Source of the DNA: Loxodes magnus
Taxonomy: Eukaryota; Ciliophora; Karyorelictea; Loxodida; Loxodidae
NCBI GenBank assembly: GCA_946699065.1
Contig: CAMPDV010000043.1
Coordinates: forward strand, 310,001-374,000
Direction: 5' to 3'
Length of the DNA: 64,000 bases
The notes under the pieces are model-generated. The model had not been told where the DNA came from. It saw nothing but the letters and a program-made list of their open reading frames with translations, and did not search any database. Shown piece after piece: positions 4,579 through 63,289 of this stretch. Position 1 is the first letter of the stretch. Every line of letters starts with the position of its first letter. Position numbers and translations under genes: made by a program.

Positions 4579-5888
4579 TCATTTTGAAGTTAATTTTCTT
4601 AAATCCTCTCCCCATTCAATATCTTCACAGAGCTTAGCAATTACTTAGTCACAGCTATCTATTATACTCAACTAATTATGACCTTCAAATCCAGGTAGTT
4701 CTTATTAGTTAATCAATACTATAGGAACTGATGAAGGAACTAAATCCTTAAGCCCTGCAAAGGGGAAAACTTTTAAACTAGTTCCTAATACAAGTAATAA
4801 ATCACACTCAGAACACTTTGATATGTTATCTTAGTATTTTTAAGGAAGCTTTTCTCCAAAAAGAACTACATCAGGTTTTACAAGTGAATCACATAAATCA
4901 CATCTAAGAATCTTTTATTCGCGAAGATGTTCGAACATTACCTCTTATGAGTATTCTTATTTGCAACCAATACAATGAGAGCTTTAGTAAGATCCATGTG
5001 CTTAAACTAATTTATCTTCATTAACTCCAGCTTTCAGTTCCAATCCATCAATATTTTAAGTAAAGCACATGTGCAACAAGTCTTTATCTTAGAGTAACTT
5101 AAAGAAATACTAAAATTAAAAATTACATGTGTAGGAGTAGGATTATATTTCTCTATATCAAACTCTGTTGAGAATTTGTAAAAGGGTTCTGGATGTTCTT
5201 CAAAGTACCAAATTGTGAATATAAGTTCAGGAGTTTCTAAATCATACTCTTCTTTTATCTTTTCATAAAGACCGCTACCTTTTGATCTAAAATCAGGAAT
5301 TCCCGCAGAAACACTTATTCCTGCACCACTCATAATTAAAATTCTTTAAAACTGATTTTTTTTGAAGCCTTCCACTAAATCTTCATATTTGAAACGCTTT
5401 GTAGCTTGTGGAAGTTCTTCTTTTACTTCTTCTACTTCTTATTAGTTTTATTAATTTTAAGACTATTAAATAGATTGATTTTGCTTATTCGTTAATCCTA
5501 TTTTTTCGAAATTTTCTAAAATTTCTTATTCATCCGAAAATTTTTTATTTCTAACAAAGCTCACAAAAGGTACAGTTTCAGCATTAGCAATGTAAGACTC
5601 ACAAAAATAGCATCATAAAGAAAGATCTGAGAAACTCAAGGTTATACCATGTTCAGTTTCTTATGCATGTGCCAATGCATGTTCTTTAACATATATACTA
5701 CAGTTTATTTAGCCACACTTCATGCAAATCCAGTTCTCTTTTGAACTCTAACATCCTGAGCACTAAGTATCTCTAACGTCTATACCTTTAGTTTCAAGTA
5801 AACTAGTAAAATGTTCATACTGCATAATAAGCTGATTCACATGAGGACAATCTAGTTTTGGTTAAACTGCAAATCCTTTTTAATCCAT
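4579..5888 (-). CDS. UBP-zinc-finger + class I sirtuin fusion (copy 1)
   Basis: ATG at 5888, one 17-nt intron at 5110-5126 (GTAA...TAG), stop TGA at 4579-4581, 430 residues. Residues about 14-105 form a UBP/BUZ zinc finger of HDAC6 type: CPH, CSGC, ENWICMKCGQINC, then H..H and the DLSLWCYFC signature. The Trp of that signature (residue 92) is encoded by TGA. A Q/E-rich linker follows. From residue 186 comes a SIRT2-like NAD-dependent deacetylase: GAGISVSAGIPDFRS, NPTPTH at the intron, TQNIDGLE, catalytic HGS (His292), the four zinc cysteines (CIGC, CDLC), KPDVVLFGE and GTSLKV. The core looks catalytically complete. In the ubiquitin-tail pocket the HDAC6 Arg of CGRY is Ile here. A paralog with the same layout lies at 61977-63289. 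Ubiquitin binding and substrate are inference. Confidence 0.92.
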
Positions 5889-12830: not shown

Positions 12831-15800
12831 ATGAAATTGGCTTTAATGACTAGTTTCTTTCTTTTAACTTTTCTTATTTTTATCGATGCTAAAGAAGCAT
12901 CAGAAGAAATCTACGTTACTACTCCAGAAGTGTCTAAGTTTTTCAGTATTTCATACTCTAATGGAACAAAAGATTACCCTTTTACTTCCCTATCAGATAC
13001 CATTTATAACTTAAAAGAAGGATCTTCATATACAATTTTTGTATCTCCACATATTCATGAAATGAACTGTTTAGCTTGTAATGCTTGCATTGATAAATGC
13101 GAAATTGTAAGAGGAGGTGCAAAATGAATTAGTACTAAAGTATTTACAATTTAGAAATTTTAAGATTGCGAGACAAGTGAGTAATTCCAAGTAATGTGCT
13201 ACAATAAGGAATAAAATGGAACTCTTTCTATATAAACAAAAGATTTATATCTAAGAATATAGAATGATACTTTAATACTCTAAAACCTAATCATTACAGC
13301 AAAGACATTGAAAAGTTAGAATGTCTATGATTATCAAAATGAATAGTTAATATTTGCCTAGCAATCAACCTTAAGGATGTACAACATACTTGTAGAGAAT
13401 TTCAATAATTAATATTATCGATGCTTATCTATAATAAGCAGCTAGTTAGAAATATATGGATCTACTTTATAACAGTTTAAAACATATAAAAATAGGTAAA
13501 TCATTTAAATTAATCATTCTGTAGCAACAATAGAAAACTGTACCTTTATTTAAAGCTAAGGGAGCGTTATTTATAGTGAGTTTAGTAGTTTGCTAATAAA
13601 CTGTTCCTTGTTTAAATAGAATACAGCTTACTATGGGCCTTTATAGATTATTACCTCAGTCTTAACTGTTTAGAATTCTTAATTTCTATATAATATAGGA
13701 TAAAGCAACGGAGGAGCATTGTTCATTCAAAAAACCAATTCTTACATTAGCCAATCTTAGTTTTAGTATAACGTCGCTAGCTTAAAAGGTGGATCTTTAT
13801 ATTTAGATAATTCTAACAGTTCCATTGAGAAATGCAATTTCGATTGAAATAAAGCATAAGATGGAGGAGCTATTTGAATGAATTAATCTAGTTTAAAGCT
13901 GTTCAATAATTGTAGCTTCATTAGCAATTATGCGAGTTATGGAGGTGCTGCTTTATTTAATAATTCTAAGGCAGATCAGATTTTAATGAGCTATTTCAAC
14001 AATAACAGCGCTGATATCTAAGGGGGAGCTTGTTATATTTACAATACTTCAATAGAAGAGGTTGCAATAAGTAATTTTACAAATAACTAAGCCAAAAAAT
14101 AAGGAGGTGCCTTCTATCTATAATATTCATACATAGCCCAAATTAATATGATTTCAGCAACTAATAACAAAGCTTCTTAATATGATGGAGGTTTTATTTA
14201 CTTAAATTAGTCATCAATAGTTTATGTAAATTATAGTGATTTCTCTTTTAACAGCGCTTATTAATTGGGAGGAGCTTTTTGTCTCATGCAAAATGCATAA
14301 ATAAAACAATTAAGTTATAATAACTTTTCCTATAATTCAATAGATTGGAAAGGAGGAGTCTTTTATGTTGAAAATTCAATTATTTATTCATTACTAAATA
14401 ACTAGTTTTTGCAGAATAAAGGCAGGTCAGGAGCAGTGCTATTTGGCTAAAATTAAACTCTTTATTCTATTGAAAATTGCTCTTTTATAAGTAACTAGGC
14501 CACTTTTGGGATCTTAACTTTTAATTACTCTTAAATATCTCTCTTTGATAGAATTCTAGCATAAAGCAATAAAATAAACTAAGGAACTTTTTATTTTCGA
14601 GGTTCAAAACTTGATTGCTTGAAAAATAGTATATTTGAAGGAAACGCTGCACAAGAAAAAGGAGGAGTTTTTTATGTTTAGGAGAATTCAATTATTATAA
14701 ATGTTGAAAATAACGTTTTCAATAATAACTCAGCTATAATATCTGGAGGAAGCTGATACATATGAAACTCTTAAATTTAATACTTTTACTAGAATTAATT
14801 TACTTAGAATACAGCTAGATAAAGTGGAGGAGTAATGTTCATCATTAATTCAAGCATTCAGCAAATAGTAGAATGCTAATTTATCAAAAACAATGCTTCA
14901 TATGGAGGAGCTTTAGATATTTATTAAGTTGCTATAAGTAAAATCTCTAATGTATATGCATCTGAAAATTAAGCATTATAAGGGTGTGGAGGATTCGCTT
15001 AAATAAATTCTTCAAAAATAGAATATTTTGAATCTAATTTTTTTTCATAGAACTATGCATAGAAAAGTGGAGGAGTTTCTTACTTTCATAATGGTTCTAT
15101 TTCTAATGATATTTATAATTTAACAATTATAAGAAATTCAGCTGAAGGATAAGGGGGAGGCTTCTATTTTGAAAACTTTATTATAAAAAGAATAAAAGAC
15201 TGCTCTTTTATATTAAACAGTGCAAAATTAAATGGAGCAGCTTTAATTGCAATTAATATGAGTATATTATCCATTTAAGACTGCATTTTTGATTAAAATT
15301 AAGGTGAAAGTAGCGGAGCTCTTTACTTTTAGAACACGAGCATCAATTTAATTTCTAGGATCTATTCATCTCAAAATTAGGCTAATAATGGGAACGGAGG
15401 ATTTTCAAGTTTTGTATCTTCTTAAGTAAAAATTTTGGAAAATAGCTAATTTTTAAAAGGCAAAGCTTATAAATAAGGTGGAGCCTTTTACTTTTCTTAA
15501 AGTTCGATTCTTGATAATATTGAAAACTTAACTTTTGAAGAAAATGTTGCTGAAAAAGAATCAGGAGGCTGTTTCTTTTTTGAAAACACTAGAATGAAAT
15601 AAATTTTAAACTGCTAATTTATTAAAAATTAAGCGAATACAAGTGGAGGAGTAATTAGCTCAATTACTGCTGATATTTAATCAGTAAAGAGCTGCCTTTT
15701 CTTACAAAATAGTGCAAAATCTAGTGGAGTTCTTGATTTAGTTAATTCAAGTTTAACCGAATTAATAGACATAGTAGCTGAAAAAAATGAAGCAACAAAT

Positions 15801-18800
15801 GGAAATGGAGGATTTTCTTAATTTAAGCATTCAACTATCCATTAAGTGATAAATAGTACATTTATGTATAATAATGCTTCATATGATGGAGGTGCTTTTT
15901 ATTTTGAAGTCTAAACTACAACGAATTTGCTAACCCTTTAGAATTGTTAGTTTGTTTCTAATTAAGCTAGCTCAGGAAGTGCTATTTTTATATAAGAGTA
16001 GTAGATATCTTTAATTAATCTTTAGGTAATAAATAACCTAGCATTAAGTTAAGGAATACTATTCTTCAGTAAATCCGAAGTTACTATTACATAAGTTTAT
16101 GCTGAAAACAACGAAGCAAATTAAGGAGGCTTGATCTATAGTATCAACTCATAAGTTGCTATTGATAATTTAACAGCCATCAAAAATAAAGCATAAGAAG
16201 GAGGAGTCCTGTATCAATAAAGTGGATATTTATACTTAAATCACTTAGAAATCTAAGAAAACAAAGCTTAGACAGGAGGCTGCTTTTGGTTAAATATCGT
16301 GCTATCAGTAATTAATATAATGCAATGCAATTTTATTATGAACTAGGCAGAAAAATAAGGTGGAGTCATATATGCTTAGTATGGAAATTTTTCTATGGAA
16401 GAGATTTAGATTGAGTATAACTAAGTAGACAGTGGATCAATATTTTATTTATACTAATCAGATTTAAATTTATCCAACATTTAATTATTGTACAATGAAG
16501 CAAAAAGAGAATCAATTCTATTCCTATAAGACTCAAGCGCTAGATTTAAGTAAGTCGAAATGATTAGCAATATAGCTTTAGGAGGTAATTTGATAGACAT
16601 TTCTAACTCTGGCATCTTTCTTTTAGATAACTGTACTCTGTAAAATAATGAAGCAAACTAAGTTGTATTTACTCAGTAGATAAAGAATACAACTATGCTA
16701 AAAACCATTTTTATTTCCAACCTTGCATAGTTAAATTTGATATAAAGTAGTAACTATCAAATATAATTTATGGACAGTCATATAGAGAAAAATGAAGTAT
16801 TAAGTGGGTCTATATTTGCTATCTTAAATCAAAATTTCTAGTTTATTAACAGTAGTGTGGTTAAAAATTTCGCAACTAATACATTCATTTTAAACTTAAA
16901 GTATGCAAAGGGAAATTTTGATAATTCGTTTTTTTTAAATAATTTCGCAACAAAGGGAGGATCAATTTCATCTTAGCTTTCCAATTATAAAATCACAAGA
17001 TGCTTTTTTAAAGAAAATGAAGCTTAAAACTAAGGAGGAGTTATAGATGCTAATCAGGATTAAATTTAAGTTTCTAATTGTACCTTTATAAAGAACAAAG
17101 CTCTTAATGGAGCTGTATTTTAAGTTTCTTAAGGGAACATAACTATTAATTTCATTAAAGTAGAAGAAAACGAAGCATCATCAGGAGGCTTTGTGAAATC
17201 AGATTAATCCAACATAACTGTTAATAATTCTATTTTTATAAAAAATAAAGCATAAGAAGGAGCTGTTTTTCATATTTCCACAACAAATCTGTTCTTCAAT
17301 TAAAGCGAATGTAACCAAAATGAAGCGCATAGTAAGGGAGGAGTTTGCTACTTACAAATGAATAGCTATTTTAAGAGTGAAAATTCAACTTTTTGGAGTA
17401 ATAATGGTAATGAGGGAGCAATTGTATATGCTCAAAGTTCTTAATTTGAAATAAATAATTCACTAATTTATTCCAATTTAGCATATTCAATAGGCATTAT
17501 AAATTTATGAACTTCAAATTAGCAGAAGCCAAGCTTAATATAAAGTACTTAGATTGCAAATAACTTTGCCAAGATATCAGCAGTATTTGTTTATTAAAGT
17601 AGTTTGAATTTTAATAAATCGGTTATGTCTAATAACTCAGCTATAACATAAACATCTGGTATGGTATTATTAAGTTCTAGACTCTTTGTCAATTAATCTG
17701 TTTTCGAAGATTAGAAAGGACTGACAGGAGTCTTTATTTCAAGTGATTTTCAAGCAGAAATAGAAATTAATAATACAAACTTTTATAGAGGGGAAGGATA
17801 ATAAGGAGGTTGTATTTATATAAAGCAGACTACAATAAGATTAAATTAAGTTAGCTTCAAAGATATGACAGCGAATTAAGGAGGAGTTATTTATTCGATA
17901 TAATCCAATTTGACTATTTACAATACTAGTTTCTATAATATTTCTGCCTTAGATTACTAAGGATCTATAGTATACATGCAAAGCTCTAATATGACAATGC
18001 AAGATTGTCTACTCTGATATTATGTAAACACCGCTGTAGCTATCGAAGTAAGTAGTTACTTAAAATTGAATCGCACAACTTTTGTTTACGGTATAAGTGA
18101 TAAATATATAGGAGCAGCTGTTTATTCTAAAAATTCATAAATAGAAATGTATAATTGTAACTGTACAAACCAATAGTCAATATCAGGCTCTTGCTTCAGT
18201 ATTGAAAATGACTTTAACTAAAATTACTCTAATTTTATTCTAAATAATTCTTTCACCTAATGTATAGGCTTTGAGTAAGGGGGAGCAGGGTTCTGCTAAA
18301 ATGCTAACGTATAGATTAAGTAAAACTAATTTTAGAATAATAAACTTCAAGGAGGAAAGTATTAAATTCCAAAAGGAGGAGCTTTAAGACTGTTTTGTGA
18401 TAATTACTAAGCTTGCTAGTATTAAATGCATAATAATACATTTTTTAATAACTTTGTATCTAATTCAATAGGAGAAGGGGGAGCCATTTCTTTCTAAGGT
18501 ACTTTTCCTGATATATTTCCAGATGTTAAAAGCTAAGAATCTTGCCTTTTATTTAAAAACAACTCTGCATTCTATGGAAACAATATAGGTTCTTTCGCTT
18601 TTAAATTGTATAATTAATCTATTGAAGATGTCCTAAGTCACTGTACAAATGAAAATAAAAAGCGTTTATTATTAATAGATGAATTACCAGGCTTTCCTCT
18701 ACCAGAAAAAAGTGTATAAATAGTAGATGTTTATGGTCAATTGGTTACTACAGATAATTCTTCTATTGCTTAAATTTTTTCCGATGATGCAGAGTTATCA

Positions 18801-21242
18801 GGAAAGACAAGAATACAAGCAGAGTAAGGTATTTTTATCATAAAAGATATATCTATAAAAGCTTAGCCTGGAACATACGTAAATTTGTAATTAGAAACGA
18901 ATGCTATAGATTAAGAAAGCTTACTTTTAAATGATGAAATGACTAATAAAATACAAGTGCAAGTATATTTGAATTATTGTCTTTAAGGATAAATTTTAAT
19001 AGATGGAAATACATGTTAAGATTGCTTACTTGGATAGTACTCTTTAGATGCAGGTGATAAATATTGTAAAGAATGCTTAGATAATGGAAGGTGTTATGGA
19101 AGCGATTTAATCACTCCTAAAGAAGGATATTGAAGAAAAAATTGTACTGAATAAAAAATTCATTAATGTCCTTATTTTGATGCTTGCCTAGGAAGTATTT
19201 TAAATAGCAAATTTGTTGATTATTATAAGCAATAATCAGATTAGGCATAAAGAGAGTCTATGAAAGAATTGATAAATTGATAAGGAAGTTGCAAAGAAGG
19301 TCATAAGGGAATAATGTGTGATGTTTGCGATTAAGATTGAACAAAAGACAGTTAAAATAGATGCTAAAAATGTTATGATAAAAGCGCTGAAGTTATCCTG
19401 TTGATTATAATTATATTTGTATTTATAATTTATAATACTTACGTTGTTAAGACTACCTTAAAATCTACTACTCAGGAAGATTAATATGATGGAGTTTATT
19501 TTAAAATTATTACAAACTATATGCAAATCTGCACTCTTATCTAAAACTTTAATTTAAGCTGGCCTGATTTTATTATTTCAGCATTCAAATTAAACTAGGA
19601 ATTTACTTCAGCCACTTCTACAATATTTACGCTTGATTGTATAATGAAAGATGGAGAGGAGAGATATTACAGCAAAGTATTAATTAATATTTCAATACCT
19701 GTTATAATATTAATAGTAACTCTAGTTTTCTTATGTTTATGATCCTTAATTACGTGAAAGCCTTTTAATAAATCATGGTTTATCACAACTATGAGTGTTT
19801 CATTTTTCTAGATTTATACAAACCTAACTCTTATTATTTTTAGTTCCTTCAGTTGTTATGAAATTTCAGATGATTTTTTAAGTTTGAACTCATATAGTGA
19901 TATACAATGCTGACATGGAAATCATCGTAAGTTTGTACTAACTTTTACCTTACCAGGTTTATTAATTTATGGAATAATGGTTCCATTAATTGTATTATAG
20001 TATCTTTATAAGCATCGTAATTAATTATAGTCTTATAAAATGATTTCTTAATTTGGATTTTTACTAGAAGGATATAAAGAAGAGTTTTACTACTGAGAAT
20101 TTATTAAGATGTATTAAAAGTTTGCTATTTCCTCTGTCTTCATTTTCCTTCAAAAAGCATCTTTAATTTTCTAAATTTGATGCTTAATTTTAATTCTAAT
20201 TTTGAGTATAATTCTATAGCTTAGGAACTAACCTTTTGCTAAAAAGGAATTAAACGATTTGGAAATGAAATCTTTAGCTATTTCAGCTTTTATTTTGTAT
20301 CTAGGAATTTATTTTGAATCAGGAGAACGCTATTATTATATGGATCTCACTTCTTTAATGCTTGCAGTAGCTACAAATGCTTATTTTATTAAAGTTTGAC
20401 TAAGTCTATTACTAATAGAGTATGGATAAAGAATATAAAAGAAACAACTAAAACTGTACTTTTGATTTGGTTTCCTTAAAAAATAAGTGAAGCTATTGGA
20501 TATCATAAAGAAATGAGAGTAAGATAAAATAACTTAAGAAACTGAATCTCAGGAGAGTATTAAGGACAATAAGCATAGCATTAAACTATATACCTAATTT
20601 GAAGATAGAAACTATGTAAAAATGCTTTAATCATTAGAAAGTTAGCTCCTGTTTAGTATGAGCTTATTTTAGCTCCATAAGCTCAACATTAAAAACTAGT
20701 ATTAATCTTAAGAGAAATATTGATCAAGTAGAATAAGAAAATTCTTATAATATTATGAGTAGTTTGAAGGATAACTTATATAATATCAACCCTCTAATAT
20801 TTAAATTAAAAGTACTTACGCAACTCAAGAAAACCTGAGTCTAAAGAAAATAAACGAAATCTAAGTTCATAGTGTTAATAAACAAAATTCACTTAAATCA
20901 AATTAAAAAAATAAATCATTTTTAAATTAAGAACCTTAATAAATAAAAAAGAGCTTCAACATATAAGGATAAATTTCAAAAATAAAGGATATTTTTGCTC
21001 TGAATTAAAGTTTTCAGTCATAAGCATAACAGGAAACTTTATATACAATTTAAGAATCTATAGAGGAATCTCAGGAATAAGAATAGTAAATATAATGTAG
21101 CAATAACCAAACTTTTGATTAAACTCAAAATGAATTCAATATTTAGCTGAGCTAGTTTTTAGAAGAATTTAAAGAAGATGAAAAATCGTAAAGCTGTCTT
21201 TAAGGAACTTTTTAATTAAATAAATATTCTTTGATTCTCTGA
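12831..21242 (+). CDS. Giant beta-helix (pectin-lyase-fold) surface protein with multi-TM C-terminus
   Basis: One continuous frame of 2804 codons from ATG 12831 to TGA 21240-21242. Residues 1-20 are a signal peptide (LALMTSFFLLTFLIFI). Residues about 150-1950 are parallel beta-helix rungs with the recurring element GGA/GGV-(F/Y)-...-N(S/T), as in polymorphic-membrane-protein-like repeats. A Cys-rich segment follows (about 2050-2185: CQDCLLGQY, GYWRKNC, GIMCDVC), then about seven membrane segments (2189-2560, first VILLIIIIFVFII) with the NFNLSWP motif seen in large ciliate membrane proteins of this layout, and a Gln/Lys-rich tail of about 240 residues. Many Trp are TGA (GGAIW, GYWRKN, CLWSLITW). 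The protein should be displayed at the cell surface or cortex with the rungs outside; ligand unknown. The last TGA could in principle be read through. Confidence 0.88.
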
Positions 21243-29855: not shown

Positions 29856-30099
29856 ATCAACGAAGAGATAATTTTGAAACATATTATATTAATATATAGA
29901 AAGAATATATTAGGTTGGAGTGAATAAAAATGAGGCATTATATAATGAAATGAATGAAAGTTATGATGATAAAAGCGAGTAAACTAATTCGGTTAAATTC
30001 TAATTTTATATTGAAAATTATTGTGTGTCATAAACTTTCAAAAATTCAATAGAAAACTTCATTTATAAGCTAAAATTTCCACAAAATGTATAATTTTAA

Positions 30100-30552
30100 A
30101 TGGCTGCTCTTACTAGACTAAGTAAAGAGATCACTGATCTTAAAAATAATCCTCCTCAGGGAGTTGTTTGTGAAACTGATGCAGGAAATAATAGAAACTG
30201 GAACGTAAGAATTTGCAATCCTGCAAACACTCCATATTCAGCTGGAAATTTCAGTTTGTAATTAAAATTCCCTGAAAATTATCCTTTCAAAGCACCTGAA
30301 GCTCAATTTATTACAAAAATTTATCACCCTAATGTAAAGTCAGATTCCGGTGAAATTTGCTAGGATATTTACGGAGCTAGCAAGTGGGTACCAACTTTAA
30401 ATGCAAGATATGTAGTAGAAGCAATCTTAAGTATGCTACACAATCCAAATTTAGAATCGCCTCTTGAACCTGAAATAGCAAAACAATATTAAAGCGATTA
30501 TAACGGATTTGTTAACTCCGCAAAGGAATGGACTTCAAGATACGCACTTTGA
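30100..30552 (+). CDS. Ubiquitin-conjugating enzyme E2 (copy 1)
   Basis: ATG 30100, stop TGA 30550-30552, 150 residues, the normal length of a core UBC domain. It starts with the usual first helix ([18 protein letters not shown]), followed by [28 protein letters not shown], the active-site Cys87 in GEICQDI, then a Trp loop, [12 protein letters not shown] and a C-terminal helix with EWTSRYAL. It should accept ubiquitin from E1 and pass it to E3s in the cytosol or nucleus; two RING proteins are encoded in this window. All Trp are TGG. The frame is open upstream to an ATG at 29950, which would add 50 residues; I keep 30100 because it fits the family start exactly. The stop lies 17 bp from the stop of the opposite gene. 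Confidence 0.93.
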
Positions 30553-32438: not shown

Positions 32439-32700
32439 GTTTGCTTATTCTAATACATCAACGAAGAGATAATTTTGAAACATATTATATTAATATATAG
32501 AAAGAATATATTAGGTTGGAGTGAATAAAAATGAGGCATTATATAATGAAATGAATGAAAGTTATGATGATAAAAGCGAGTAAACTAATTCGGTTAAATT
32601 CTAATTTTATATTGAAAATTATTGTGTGTCATAAACTTTCAAAAATTCAATAGAAAACTTCATTTATAAGCTGAAATTTCCACAAAATGTATAATTTTAA

Positions 32701-33153
32701 ATGGCTGCTCTTACTAGACTAAGTAAAGAGATCACTGATCTTAAAAATAATCCTCCTCAGGGAGTTGTTTGTGAAACTGATGCGGGAAATAATAGAAACT
32801 GGAACGTAAGAATTTGCAATCCTGCAAACACTCCATATTCAGCTGGAAATTTCAGTTTGTAATTAAAATTCCCTGAAAATTATCCTTTCAAAGCACCTGA
32901 AGCTCAATTTATTACAAAAATTTATCACCCTAATGTAAAGTCAGATTCCGGTGAAATTTGCTAGGATATTTACGGAGCTAGCAAGTGGGTACCAACTTTA
33001 AATGCAAGATATGTAGTAGAAGCAATCTTAAGTATGCTACACAATCCAAATTTAGAATCGCCTCTTGAACCTGAAATAGCAAAACAATATTAAAGCGATT
33101 ATAACGGATTTGTTAACTCCGCAAAGGAATGGACTTCAAGATACGCACTTTGA
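32701..33153 (+). CDS. Ubiquitin-conjugating enzyme E2 (copy 2)
   Basis: Same 150-residue protein as the copy at 30100, with the same active-site Cys87 and C-terminus; the one difference I see inside the core frame is GCA to GCG (Ala). A second difference (CTA to CTG) lies in the upstream open extension and would also be silent there. Both copies look intact, so this is a recent duplication that doubles gene dose rather than a pseudogene pair. Confidence 0.93.
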
Positions 33154-34622: not shown

Positions 34623-37600
34623 TCACATCAACTAGGTATTTAAATAAGCATCTACAACTTCCTAAATGTTTCCATGGATTTTAACAAGCTGTTATACTTT
34701 CTGAAGATTTACTTGCTATCCTAATATTTCTTTCAGTTTAGTAACTGCTTCTTAATATAAATCAGTCTTTTGAAATTCTTACTACAAACTCTATTTTTAG
34801 AAAAAATTTTACTAATTTCTTTTTAGATAACTTTATTACTATTAAGGTGGCTATTAGTTTTGCTTACTTGAATTATCTATATTTTTATATTAATTACTCA
34901 GTACTTAATAGGAAAATTTCTAATCTGATAGCACTAATTTATTATATTTTACTTAAAACACAGAAGTATAACGACCTGGCTATTTATCTACTTACCATTA
35001 AATCGTTTTTTAGATCTTTTGGCCTGGCTTTATGCGTTAAATAACATCAATAGTTATTCCATCAAAATCAATATTAAAGCAGTCATAAATTTCTATATTT
35101 TGGATGAGTAGCAAATGTATTTCAAAATATATATTTTGATATTGCTAATAAGCTTTGTTCTACACATTCATTACTTAAAATTATAGAATTTATTCTGGCA
35201 TGTTTAATATTTTAAACTGTAAATTTGATTCTTAACTATTTATTTATCTATTTGAGTAGCTATCTATCAACTTCAAGCTTACCAAAAATTCTTAGGATTT
35301 TTAAAATTAAATTTTTATTGGCTGCAAGTTTGTTATTTTATTGACTTCTACTGCATTCAGAGTTTGATTGAAACTTTAAAAATCACTCTTTAGTCATACT
35401 TGATTTTACTTTCAATTAACATTTCCAATATTTCTTACTTAGCTATATTATTATAAAAACTTACATGTTAACTATTATTTACTCGAAGATATACGCTTCG
35501 AATGTCTTAAAAGGAACAATAATTTCACCTTACAAAACTACTGATGACTAAGATTTATTTAATTACTAAATCTCAATTTGATTTCTTATTTGAGGCTGCT
35601 TTATTATATTAACGTTTAGCGGTTGTTAAACCTGATTTTTCTGGTTTTCCTTTTTTATATATTAAGCTTATTATTTGAGCTCTTACTAAAATTCTTTTTG
35701 GATTTAAGATTATTAAAATTAAGCAGGCTAGTTAACTGCCTTTTGTTTTTCTCAAATAAATTCTTTCTACTAAATTTATAACTTTAATGTCTTTAATTCT
35801 TCTTAAAGATTTTAATCTTCCTGTTAGAATTTTTCAATTTATGAGGTCTTATGATTAAGCTGCTCAGTTAATTACTAGATTATTAAATTATTTTCTTCTA
35901 ATTACTAGACTTATTTAAGCATCTTCTGCTATAGTTCTTAAAAGCAATTATGCTATTTTAAATCTTATCTTGAAACTATTATTTCACAATTTTTGCATTT
36001 AATCTTCAAACCAGTACAATTTGTAAAATGCTAATTTATTAAATGGAACTGAAACTTCTGCTAACAACTTTTGCATTGCACTTCCCTTTTCTCGCAGACA
36101 TTTAAATGATCTTATAAATCAAAAAGAGTTATTTCAGCTTTATTACATAAAGGACACCTTATTTAAAGATTCTTTATTTCTATATCGATTTCCTCATTCT
36201 TAATCAGCTCGTAAGGTTGATTACAAATTAAGCAAGGCTTGTTCTTTTCCTATCCTTAATACTGCTCATGACAAAATTAGCAGTAAACTTTATGGCATTT
36301 ATTGCAAACACTCACATTTTGAGCTACTAGAAAACAAAAATGACATAAATACTCCTCCCACTCTTGACTTACAAATAAGTCAGTATCGTAACCACCCTCC
36401 TTATCTAAGAAATCATAATCTTATTCTTCTTAATTCAATTCTTAGAAATTAAAGTCTTAAAGATTTTCTACTTCAAGGATAGACTAATAAGCTTTATTTA
36501 ATATAAATTGCTTCTTATTTATGTCAAATTATAGATTATCTATTTTGTTTTCTTATGACTATTCCATTTCTTATTTTCTTAGATTTTCCTCTTTTTGCTT
36601 TTTTATATAGCGCTTTTATTTTATTAGTTCTCTTTACTTTTTGGCGTAAGTAGGATCAATTTTATAAATTTAAGATTATGTCTAAATTATTTTTTCAAAT
36701 GTTTCTATATTATTAATGATAGTAGAATCTGTTTAGTACTAATTAAAGCACAAAATAAGTTCTATAGCTTGTTTTTCAGGAATTTTTTAAATATTGCTAG
36801 CATTAATTATGTTTTTCTAATGTTTTGTTCAGTCATCTTCTATCATGATTTAGCTAACTTAGGAAAATGATAAATCTTTTACTATAAGCCAATTTACTTT
36901 GAAATAAAATTTTACTCTTTCCTTTCCATCCCATTTATCATAGTCCACAAAATTTCAATTTAATACTTCAGCTGCTCCATAAAATTTTCTAAATCTTTCA
37001 CAAGTGAAAAATAAGAGAGATTTTATGCGATTTTATTATTTACACTTTTTAGCAATTCTATAGTATTATTTTTCTGATAATCCCCATACTTGATCTTTTA
37101 TTGAGTGATAGATATTCTTTTCACTAATAGATTTGATTACATAAAAGAAAGCTCCATAATATATTGATAAATCTATTTTTGCGAACTATAGTTTGTTAAA
37201 ATTCAATTTAATTTGAATTATTTATTCCTATAGCTGCTATTTTTACTTGTTTAACTCTTCAAAAGCTCTTTACTAGTTTAAATCTACCTCTTCAATAGCT
37301 CTTTACTAGTTTAAATCTTATTCTTCAGCATTTTAATTTTAATAATCTTATCATATTTCGTCTTATTCTTAAATTAACTTAGCCATGTCTTCTTTTTTTA
37401 TTCCCTAAAGCAAATGCTATTTTTCTTATCCGTTAAATAACTTTTCATCCAAAAAAATTCTAGCTATACTCAAAATTTATTCTTTATCATCTTCTATTCA
37501 CAGTTACTTAAGTCAATTTGAATCTAAATTTTAAATTATCTTTCTATTGATTTAATTACATTTATCCTTCTAATAAAATCCATATTTCTCCAACAGTCTC

Positions 37601-37971
37601 TTAATATGTAACTTTGCAAATTTTTGAACATATTTGTTAGCTTTAACTTGGCAAAATTATTAAAAACTAGTAACTCAATAAGGTTGGTCAATTAAAGGAA
37701 CTTGATTATTGTCTTCAAATATATTTATTTGCTGCTAGTTAAATTTCTTTCGAGTTACGATTTGTAAGATTATTGTACTCCCATTTGATATTTAGTAAGT
37801 CGATAGCATTTCGTTCTTATCTAAGATAACTTATTCATAAATTAAATTGAAACTTTAAAACGGAAATATTTGCTCCTTTACAATTTACTCAATATCAGAA
37901 ACTTTAGAGTTTTCTCTATCTAAGCTAATCAAGCAAGTATTACCACTCAGATTATTTATAAATATTAGCAT
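34623..37971 (-). CDS. Ubiquitin-like + YTH + RING + TRAF zinc-finger + NBR1-like + UBA-like multidomain protein
   Basis: ATG 37971, one 22-nt intron at 35443-35464, stop TGA 34623-34625, 1108 residues; lengths close the frame exactly. In order: ubiquitin-like domain 1-75 (LIFINNLSGNT, LIYEQVILD, STYQIS.GSTIIL); helical linker with a short tandem repeat (DLNQQRA twice); YTH domain about 273-430 (FYVIKSISEKNIYHSIKDQV then Trp296, FYGAAEV, YDKW347, VNWLIVKD, INASNIQKIPEKQA); RING 543-590 (CHFC, CNKCHKVYCQFC, CLIC); TRAF zinc fingers 606-670 (CPLC, CEKREVQCKSCQQKF); coiled coil about 675-760; an Ig-like fold from 814 resembling the NBR1 FW domain (VRNIGNVNWKQNQVWL); C-terminal UBA-like helices (VQQLVKIHGNIQEVVDAYL). 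Known roles: YTH reads m6A RNA, RING transfers ubiquitin, the Ubl/FW/UBA layout recalls autophagy receptors. Linking methylated RNA to ubiquitin or autophagy is inference. Confidence 0.9.
35443..35464 (-). other. 22-nt intron in the YTH-RING gene
   Basis: GTAAGT...TATAG on the minus strand. Removing it restores the NBR1-like strand (VRNIGNVNW) and the whole downstream frame; reading through gives scattered TGAs without sense. Confidence 0.85.
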
Positions 37972-51397: not shown

Positions 51398-52222
51398 ATG
51401 TAAGAGGAAGAAAATGAAATCTGCAGCAACTGCAATAATGAAATTTCAAAATCTAAGATGATAATACATTAGCGTCATTGCCTAAAAATTTATTACAAGT
51501 GTGAATGTGGAGAGGTTGTAAAAAAGGATGAAAAAGAAGAGCATGACTAAGAATTTCATTCTCAAGTTCCATGCAAATATTGTAGATAAAAGTTTTTAAA
51601 ACCTGAAGTTAGCTAGCACTAAGAAAACTGTAATAAGAAACCAGTAATTTGTCAATATTGTGAAGCGCACATTGATGTGGATTTATATTAAAGCCATCTT
51701 AAAGAGTGTGGAAGTAGAACTTAGCGATGCTTTAAATGTGAAAAAAATATTCTGAATGTTAACTTTGAAATTCACTAGTAAAACTGTAGACTAAAGAAAT
51801 AAAATCCACAGAATTAAGAGTAAGTTTTATCAATATTAGTGACTTAGTTGGATATCAATACTCTTATAACTAAAGAAGTTCTTATCAAAACAATACGGAA
51901 TCTTAATTTGAAAGTGAAGATCCAGAACTTTAATTTGCTATTTAGAAATCCATAGAAGAATAGTCCATAAACTAGGAAAAATAAAGAACTATAAGCTAAC
52001 AGAAGCAGATAATCCATGATATAGATTATAATCCGAAGTTGAACAGTAATGAAACTTAACAAATATTAAATCAAGCATCTTGTAAGCTTTATTTATTAAA
52101 TTTACCATGTAGACTTAGAAAGTGAAAGAAATTAATAATAAAACTAAAATAACAAAGAATAAGGCATCGGCTGTTGCTTAGGAAGAGATAAAGATGAAAA
52201 CTCGAGCTGTTTTATATTCTGA
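51398..52222 (+). CDS. TRAF-type zinc-finger protein with ubiquitin-interacting motif
   Basis: ATG 51398, introns 51820-51839 (20 nt) and probably 52082-52112 (31 nt), stop TGA 52220-52222, 257 residues. Residues 7-130 are serial TRAF/XAF1-like fingers: CSNCNNEI...HQRHC, CECGEVV, CKYCRQKF...HQENC, CQYCEAHI...HLKEC, CFKCEKNI...HQQNC. After the first intron the frame gives EDPELQFAIQKSIEEQ, a near-consensus ubiquitin-interacting motif. The first intron is well supported, since without it the UIM is lost. The second is less sure: without it the protein ends at 52125 after LRK; with it the tail is GIGCCLGRDKDE. A role in ubiquitin-dependent signalling or trafficking is inferred from the domain pair. 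Confidence 0.8.
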
Positions 52223-61976: not shown

Positions 61977-63289
61977 TCAAATTAAAGCAGAACCTTTCGA
62001 CTATATTATCTTCTAAAGCTCCTCTCCCCAACCCACATCCTCACATAGTTATGTTATTACTTAATCGCAGCTTCCTATTAAACTTAACTGGTTACTATAG
62101 CCAAATCCAGGTAATTCTTATTTATTAATTAATATTTTTGGAACTTTTATAGGTACCAAATCTTTAAGACTGGCAAAAGGGTAAACTAGCAAAGAGGTTC
62201 CTATAACAAGTAGTAAATCACATTCTAAGCATCTTGATAGATTAGTTAGATACTTTTTAGGTAACTTCTCTCCAAAAAGTACTACGTCTGGCTTTACGAG
62301 TTCGTTACATTCGCTACATCGCAATATTTTTTCTTGTCTAAGATGTTCATGCATTATCTCTTTTGAATATTCTTTATTACATTTTATACAATGGGAACTA
62401 GAATATGAGCCATGAGATTAAACCAACTTTTCATCACTAAGACCAGCTTTTAATTCCAGTCCATCAACATTCTAAGTAAAGCACATTAGAAGTAGATTTT
62501 TTTCTTGAAGAAGTTTCATAAAATACTACAGTAAAAAATTACATGGGTAGGAGTAGGATTATACTTTTCTGTGTCAAACTCTTTAGAATATTTATAGAAA
62601 ATCTCAGGGTGTTCTTTAAAGTATTCAAGTGTAAAAATAATTTCAGGATTTTCTAATTTATATTCTCTTCTAACTTCTTCGTATATACCTGTACCTGGAG
62701 ATCTAAAATCGGGAATTCCTGCTGAAACACTGATCCCTGCTCCACTCATAATTAAGATTTTCTAGAACTTATTATTTTTTAAACCTTCCACTAAATCCTA
62801 CTACGTGAATTAAACTTATGTCTGTGCAAACTATTAGTTTTCTGCTTAAAAATTCTCCTAGTTTTATGCTTTCTATTACTCCTAATTAAGTAAAAAACTT
62901 ACTCTTTCGAAATGTTCTTATAGTTATTGCTGATAAATTAGCTTTTTTTCTCTTGAGAAATTTACATAAGTATCAGTTTAAATACTAGTTACAGTAGAAT
63001 CACATTAAAAGCACCATAGAGACAAATCCTATAAATTTAAAGCAACATCATGTTAAATTTCCTATGAATGATTCAAAGCATGCTATTTAAAGACTCTGTT
63101 ACAATTTATTTACCCACATTTCATGCAAATCAAGTTCTCTAGGCCACTATTACATTGCTAGCAAATAAAAGTATCTAAATTTGATAATTTATTTTAAATT
63201 AATTTAGTGAAATCATCATATAGCATTAAATTATCACCTAAATGCTAACAATCATAGTTAGGCTGCATTGCAAAACCATCGTATTCCAT
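61977..63289 (-). CDS. UBP-zinc-finger + class I sirtuin fusion (copy 2)
   Basis: ATG 63289, a 17-nt intron at 62526-62542 at exactly the same codon as in copy 1 (after NPTPTH), stop TGA 61977-61979, 431 residues. The zinc finger has CQQCNSGLENLICMKCGQIN and DLSLWCFQC; its Trp92 is TGG, where copy 1 has TGA. The sirtuin core from residue 181 keeps GAGISVSAGIPDFRS, TQNVDGLE, catalytic SHGSY, CIKC and CSEC zinc pairs, KPDVVLFGE and GTSLLV. In the ubiquitin pocket the Arg of HDAC6 CGRY is kept (CNRV) but the Tyr is not, the reverse of copy 1. A 21-nt GTAAGT...TTAG stretch in the linker could be a second, in-frame intron. The start codon is 43 bp from the divergent gene at 63333. Confidence 0.92.

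Follow-up and report, generated by a model that had tools for sequence, protein, structure and literature searches.

YTH readers of N6-methyladenosine (m6A) in RNA are known to act through separate recruited effectors, such as deadenylase, translation or splicing factors. Outside the YTH domain, known proteins of this kind have disordered regions or a helicase, and CPSF30-YTH has CCCH fingers (drawn in part from PMC12787238 and PMC9778586). Here we describe a gene at 34623..37971 on the minus strand of a 64,000-nucleotide stretch (the window) of contig CAMPDV010000043.1 from the karyorelict ciliate Loxodes magnus, whose product is very probably one polypeptide that joins a YTH domain to modules of the ubiquitin system.

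The protein resembles several described systems in part. Its YTH domain, like those of the YTHDF and YTHDC readers, covers nearly the full PF04146 profile and has tryptophan at two positions of the m6A cage, but it belongs to a group separate from the YTHDF- and YTHDC-like genes of the same genome. As in TRAF6-type ubiquitin ligases (E3s), a RING is followed by three TRAF-type fingers. The differences are that the RING has eight cysteines, that no Pfam match to a C-terminal MATH/TRAF-C domain was found in the window protein, and that a ubiquitin-like (Ubl) domain, the YTH domain and a UBA-like segment are additional. Rad23 and ubiquilin are Ubl-UBA shuttle factors, and the window protein likewise has an N-terminal Ubl and a C-terminal UBA-like segment; it differs in adding RING-TRAF and YTH, and its UBA identity is putative. 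NBR1 and ILRUN share with it the FW motif N-x-G-N-x-x-W, a UBA-like end and, below threshold, a match to N_BRCA1_IG, but the window protein gives no Pfam match to PB1 or to the ZZ zinc finger (PF00569), and its FW region is below every cut-off.

An earlier note on this DNA had claimed that one protein joins a YTH domain to a ubiquitin-system module in a combination not described before, and this holds for the proteins and literature searched. No relative with the combination was found among 5.8 billion proteins, a search that reaches only relatives sharing exact words and perhaps covers recoded ciliates poorly. A profile of the four paralogues described below, run against the protein set (best 7990 candidates scored), gave one match, to an ordinary YTH-only protein. 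In the open-licence literature, no such combination appears in titles or abstract openings among the matches listed, and YTH is not mentioned in the main text of PMC11441545, which describes the L. magnus macronuclear assembly.

Gene structure and coding evidence

The gene has 1108 codons and a TGA stop, read with NCBI code 27, in which TAA and TAG encode glutamine and TGA is either tryptophan or stop. All the features described here as part of it lie on the minus strand. The frame is opened by the ATG at 37971 and runs to 35465 through exon 1 (35465..37971, 2507 nt), which encodes the Ubl, a linker, the YTH domain, RING-TRAF, a Gln-rich region (coiled-coil by eye) and the start of an FW-like segment. 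After an intron of 22 nt (35443..35464, GTAAGT...ATAG), which has the same position and phase as a 20-nt intron in the paralogue L009, exon 2 (34623..35442, 820 nt) encodes the remainder of the FW-like segment, a second segment and the UBA-like end, and closes with TGA at 34623-34625. This agrees with the single frame, GT-AG intron and 1108-residue product given in the earlier note. The L. magnus macronuclear assembly is described as 706 Mbp, with introns of mean length 19.3 bp, 93% of them up to 25 bp (PMC11441545); the genome searched here was the assembly of 705,730,643 bases that contains the window. Nine of the tryptophans in the spliced product are encoded by internal TGA codons and five by TGG. 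Upstream of the ATG at 37971 there are 100 codons with no in-frame TGA, and further ATGs at -55 and -78, so that an upstream start is possible.

An open frame alone proves nothing here, because code 27 has no dedicated stop and TGA can be read as tryptophan. In-frame sections were scored with a codon model against non-coding stretches of equal length, and the number of these nulls reaching the same score was counted; the training segments excluded the gene, but the segmentation behind them was partly seeded with it. No null reached the score of residues 78-255 (0/714), the YTH domain (0/726), residues 500-538 (0/856), RING-TRAF (0/732), residues 690-810 (0/774) or the UBA-like segment (0/852), and few reached that of the Ubl (6/822), residues 417-500 (4/822) or residues 838-1020 (2/714). 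Weak sub-stretches are found at residues 78-130 (41/840) and 1021-1065 (53/852), and in the RING-TRAF region a second frame also scores positive. Codons 382-739 are free of TGA, and therefore the end of the YTH domain, the linker and RING-TRAF all lie in one TGA-free frame.

Leave-one-out queries, built only from the paralogues L009, L010 and L011 and run on six frames of the window, recovered seven segments of the gene in order without any use of the window sequence. The matches were to the Ubl (1.4e-6, L010 alone), the YTH domain (8e-46), the linker before the RING (4e-14), RING-TRAF (2e-53), the FW-like segment (2e-12, L009 alone), the second segment (7e-12, L009 and L011) and the UBA-like end (5e-6). 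The best match outside the gene in the 64 kb was 0.025, from the RING-TRAF query at 51560-51781. A helical domain between Ubl and YTH was hinted at by the joint alignment as being shared with the paralogues; it was rejected, since the leave-one-out profile of the helical segment common to the paralogues has no match in the window gene.

YTH domain and methyltransferase genes

The YTH domain (residues 276-409, 36745..37146) is certain in its sequence identity. Searching the protein with PF04146, a check proposed earlier, gave a significant match of 63.3 bits (cut-off 22.1), and yeast Pho92 is a match in the PDB (4rcm, E 4.5e-11). In the alignment, Trp296 and Trp347 fall on the first two tryptophans of YTHDF2 and Pho92, which we take to be cage residues 1 and 2. 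The assignment of these two tryptophans in the earlier note was thus correct, while its third cage residue, proposed as Val342 or Trp339, is replaced by Val353, at a position where an aromatic residue or leucine was looked for. That the window copy binds m6A RNA is marginally favoured. Both cage tryptophans are also kept in L009, encoded by TGA at the first position and TGG at the second.

The genome contains four MT-A70 matches. They include, as the pair L039/L040, a METTL3-like sequence with DPPW (243 bits, 1e-71) and a METTL14-like stretch (218 bits, 6e-64). The METTL14-like stretch also reads DPPW; animal METTL14 has EPPL at that motif.

RING and TRAF-type fingers

An acidic conserved stretch (residues 505-538, 36358..36459) precedes the RING in the alignment, and the leave-one-out match to it begins at residue 492 (3.8e-14). 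It is followed by the RING (residues 540-588, 36208..36354), with cysteines 543, 546, 556, 559, 564, 567, 580 and 583, and then by three TRAF-type CCHC fingers (residues 606-676, 35944..36156). The eight RING cysteines and the twelve Cys/His ligands of the fingers are invariant in all six of the relatives aligned. A profile made from the six relatives matched the RING and fingers of TRAF6 (5vo0, E 2.2e-9) over positions 3-139 of 154, with weaker matches to RBBP6 (1.6e-4), Kaiso (6.5e-4) and FLN29 (0.002). In the window protein alone, the Pfam RING match is 15.5-18 bits, under the cut-off of 27, and zf-TRAF gives no Pfam match. The RING and TRAF fingers proposed for this protein are therefore borne out by the profile and the invariant ligands and not by the Pfam thresholds. 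The relatives L029, L030 and L031 have a RING above a Pfam cut-off. Provided that the product is one polypeptide, E3 activity is fairly probable.

Ubiquitin-like head and C-terminal segments

The Ubl domain (residues 1-77, 37741..37971) matches PF00240 with 26.9 bits (cut-off 25.4). The match exceeds the cut-off in a scan restricted to these 77 residues, and the full-length scan does not list a Ubl. The same domain scores 46.8 bits in L010 and, under the cut-off, 17.8 bits in L011. By eye, L010 has a second ubiquitin-like stretch. The earlier note had compared it with the Ubl/PB1-type head of NBR1-type receptors; the head is of the ubiquitin type and not PB1.

The C-terminal part is less easily named. 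The FW-like segment (residues 811-905, 35235..35541), which is split by the intron, has no Pfam or PDB match. Comparison with NBR1, ILRUN and fungal NBR1 using hhalign aligned 15-17 columns at the N-x-G-N-x-x-W motif (P 0.0012, probability 19.5%), a score reached by 0/100 column shuffles. The second segment (residues 918-1018, 34896..35198) is common to L009 and L011. Within it, PF16158 (N_BRCA1_IG) is the top match of exon 2, on residues 970-1002 (14.9 bits, cut-off 28, E 0.04). As a cut piece, the segment gave no PF16158 match, and hhalign against the three FW chains gave nothing (41/100 shuffles reach the score). The motif in the first segment and the sub-threshold match in the next make two tandem FW-like domains possible and unproven. 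The UBA-like segment (residues 1062-1105, 34635..34766; leave-one-out 4.6e-6) is conserved in the alignment of six relatives, yet it has no significant Pfam or PDB match to a named UBA. UBA_Rad5 and Img2 were considered for this tail and rejected, at about 13 bits, under the cut-off.

The modules listed in the earlier note thus fare unequally. The gene itself, YTH, Ubl and RING-TRAF are retained. What remains of the FW domain is its motif, every cut-off having been missed, and what remains of the UBA end is a conserved segment that has no significant named match. The NBR1-type layout that these names implied is not supported, because the head is ubiquitin-type, ZZ was not found, and neither L010 nor L011 yielded an FW-like first segment.

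Paralogues and origin

There are 14 YTH matches in the genome, two of which overlap, giving 13 places. Besides the window, three of these hold RING-TRAF in the frame of the YTH domain, namely L009, L010 and L011. Compared with the window protein from residue 258 to residues 676-713, over 420-463 aligned positions, L009 is 43% identical (E 1e-89), L011 36.5% (E 2e-66) and L010 35.7% (E 2e-64). All three share the window protein's kind of C-terminal end. L010 and L011 are on one contig, with their YTH matches about 7 kb apart. The ratio of nonsynonymous to synonymous substitution rates (dN/dS) between these two, from YTH through the TRAF fingers, is 0.48, which indicates constraint in that pair and does not concern the window gene. 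No significant RING-TRAF match was found in the 8-9 kb searched around each of four other YTH places (L012, L036, L037 and L038), nor was RING-TRAF found in the YTH frame within the flanks of about 1.5 kb searched at five further places.

The locus L028 contains two adjoining genes of about 370 residues each, which lack YTH and run from a Ubl (52 and 47 bits for Pfam ubiquitin) through RING-TRAF to a UBA-like end. The RING-TRAF domains of the four YTH-bearing proteins and the L028 pair group together (100/99, tree of 11 rows). In a tree of 13 rows, the four YTH domains also form one group (99/97), separate from the sampled copies of YTHDF- and YTHDC-like type. In the wider RING-TRAF family (L029, L030, L031 and L033), the tails are SPRY-like (sub-threshold), ZZ, or FW-like by eye; the ZZ of L030, in a RING-TRAF-ZZ arrangement, is over the Pfam cut-off. 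Relatives that combine a Ubl and RING-TRAF with a UBA-like end indicate a TRAF6-like scaffold as the parent. The simplest history would be that a Ubl-RING-TRAF-UBA protein gained a YTH domain; alternatively, YTH may have been lost from the L028 genes.

Other features of the window

Two tandem genes for ubiquitin-conjugating enzymes (E2s; UQ_con) lie on the plus strand at 29899-30546 and 32479-33153. Their proteins are identical over 216/216 residues compared, and the second gene ends 1.5 kb from the YTH-RING gene. Linkage between the two kinds of gene was considered and rejected, because a search of 15 loci, each 8-10 kb long and the paralogue loci among them, gave no E2 match. Two coding stretches on the minus strand, at 5124-5888 and 62540-63289, have a zf-UBP finger followed in the same stretch by the beginning of a SIR2 (sirtuin) domain (63/55 and 59/56 bits). 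As judged from these domain matches, this is an unusual putative ubiquitin-deacylase fusion, present twice. The plus strand also has a coding stretch of 2259 codons at 12885-19661, with a match to right-handed beta-helix (Pfam, 68 bits).

Discussion

The best reading of these sequences is a TRAF6-like RING/zinc-finger protein with a Ubl head, a UBA-like tail and a built-in YTH domain, which ribonucleoproteins (RNPs) carrying m6A would recruit as an E3 or as a ubiquitin receptor. We regard its chances as even. The YTH domain would dock the protein on m6A RNA made by a METTL3/METTL14-type writer; RING-TRAF would recruit an E2 and attach ubiquitin to the proteins of that RNP or to its own polypeptide; and the Ubl and UBA-like ends would hand the RNP, once ubiquitinated, to the proteasome or to another ubiquitin receptor. 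In its full form, as an m6A-directed ubiquitin ligase that reads the mark in RNA, uses its own TRAF6-type RING to ubiquitinate proteins of the RNP so marked and passes them on through its Ubl and UBA ends, the proposal is a tentative one.

A number of observations weigh against this reading. The complete set of modules is seen in the window gene alone: L009 was searched for a Ubl, and L010 and L011 for the FW-like first segment, and none was found. Among the 5.8 billion proteins, searches with the whole protein and with residues 262-700 gave no relative from any other genome. In the RING, C-x2-C-x4-C-x2-C takes the place of the C-x-H form of TRAF6, and leucine replaces the usual proline in the last C-P-x-C; the C-x2-C form is also present in relatives with a RING above a Pfam cut-off. 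PB1 and ZZ, which are part of the definition of NBR1, were not found in the window protein with Pfam. The RING tree leaves the four YTH-bearing copies unseparated from the L028 pair, and structure prediction of residues 78-419 from the single sequence was poor and uninformative (mean predicted local distance difference test score, pLDDT, 42). In the YTH domain, the R-D pair that follows the cage, which we take to be contact residues, is S-N by alignment, and the cage itself is broken in two paralogues: L010 has leucine at the first tryptophan and L011 at both, and therefore m6A reading is not a constraint on the whole family.

The YTH observations, together with Val353 at the third cage position and the separate place of the four YTH domains in the tree, would fit a TRAF-like E3 or scaffold in which YTH has become a general RNA- or protein-binding module and m6A reading is lost. 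There is precedent in Mmi1, whose YTH domain does not preferentially bind m6A, while YTHDC1 reads m6A with W377, W428 and L439 (both PMC9778586). Such a loss is quite possible, but the window copy and L009 retain both cage tryptophans. A different target for the YTH domain would be N6-methyladenine (6mA) in DNA, making the protein a chromatin-linked E3 or ubiquitin receptor. YTH domains favour single-stranded nucleic acid, which counts against this, as does the presence of METTL3/14-like genes in the genome. The Loxodes macronucleus has 4,405,028 6mA ApT positions (0.85%), 99.87% of them hemimethylated (PMC11441545), so that the substrate would be plentiful; on balance we consider this reading unlikely.

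The remaining alternatives concern the ends of the protein. The earlier note had proposed a receptor or E3 that marks methylated RNPs for ubiquitination or selective autophagy; in its autophagy form this would be a receptor of the NBR1 type. The FW-like motif, the position of N_BRCA1_IG as top match of exon 2, the UBA-like end, and the ZZ and by-eye FW-like tails of two RING-TRAF relatives all fit such a receptor; the ubiquitin-type head, the missing ZZ, the score of PF16158 and the two paralogues with no detected FW-like first segment do not, and we think it very unlikely. It is also conceivable that the Ubl is a separate small gene ending at TGA codon 99, the YTH-RING gene then starting at Met196. 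The weakly coding residues 78-130 and the failure of residues 100-200 to match the helical profile of the paralogues would fit, and about 18 codons before TGA 99 are without TAA by eye, resembling the depletion before stops in L. magnus (PMC11441545). Yet residues 78-255 beat all 714 nulls in the same frame, residues 100-195 are beaten or equalled by only 3/798, both L028 genes run from Ubl to RING with no intervening TGA, and L010 carries a Ubl at the same end. This division of the gene is highly improbable.

Returning to the E3 or ubiquitin receptor with a built-in YTH domain, its core occurs in three sister genes, which suggests, as far as sequence can, a direct link of RNA marks to protein tagging. 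If the E3-type module is part of the reader itself, the effector would be explicit, and the idea that m6A marks RNP proteins for ubiquitination could be tested. The family of four, in which some copies have an intact cage and others a broken one, lies in one cell with METTL3/METTL14-like genes and offers a natural comparison that would separate m6A reading from the remaining function. If true, an m6A-directed ligase would couple the epitranscriptome directly to the ubiquitin system.

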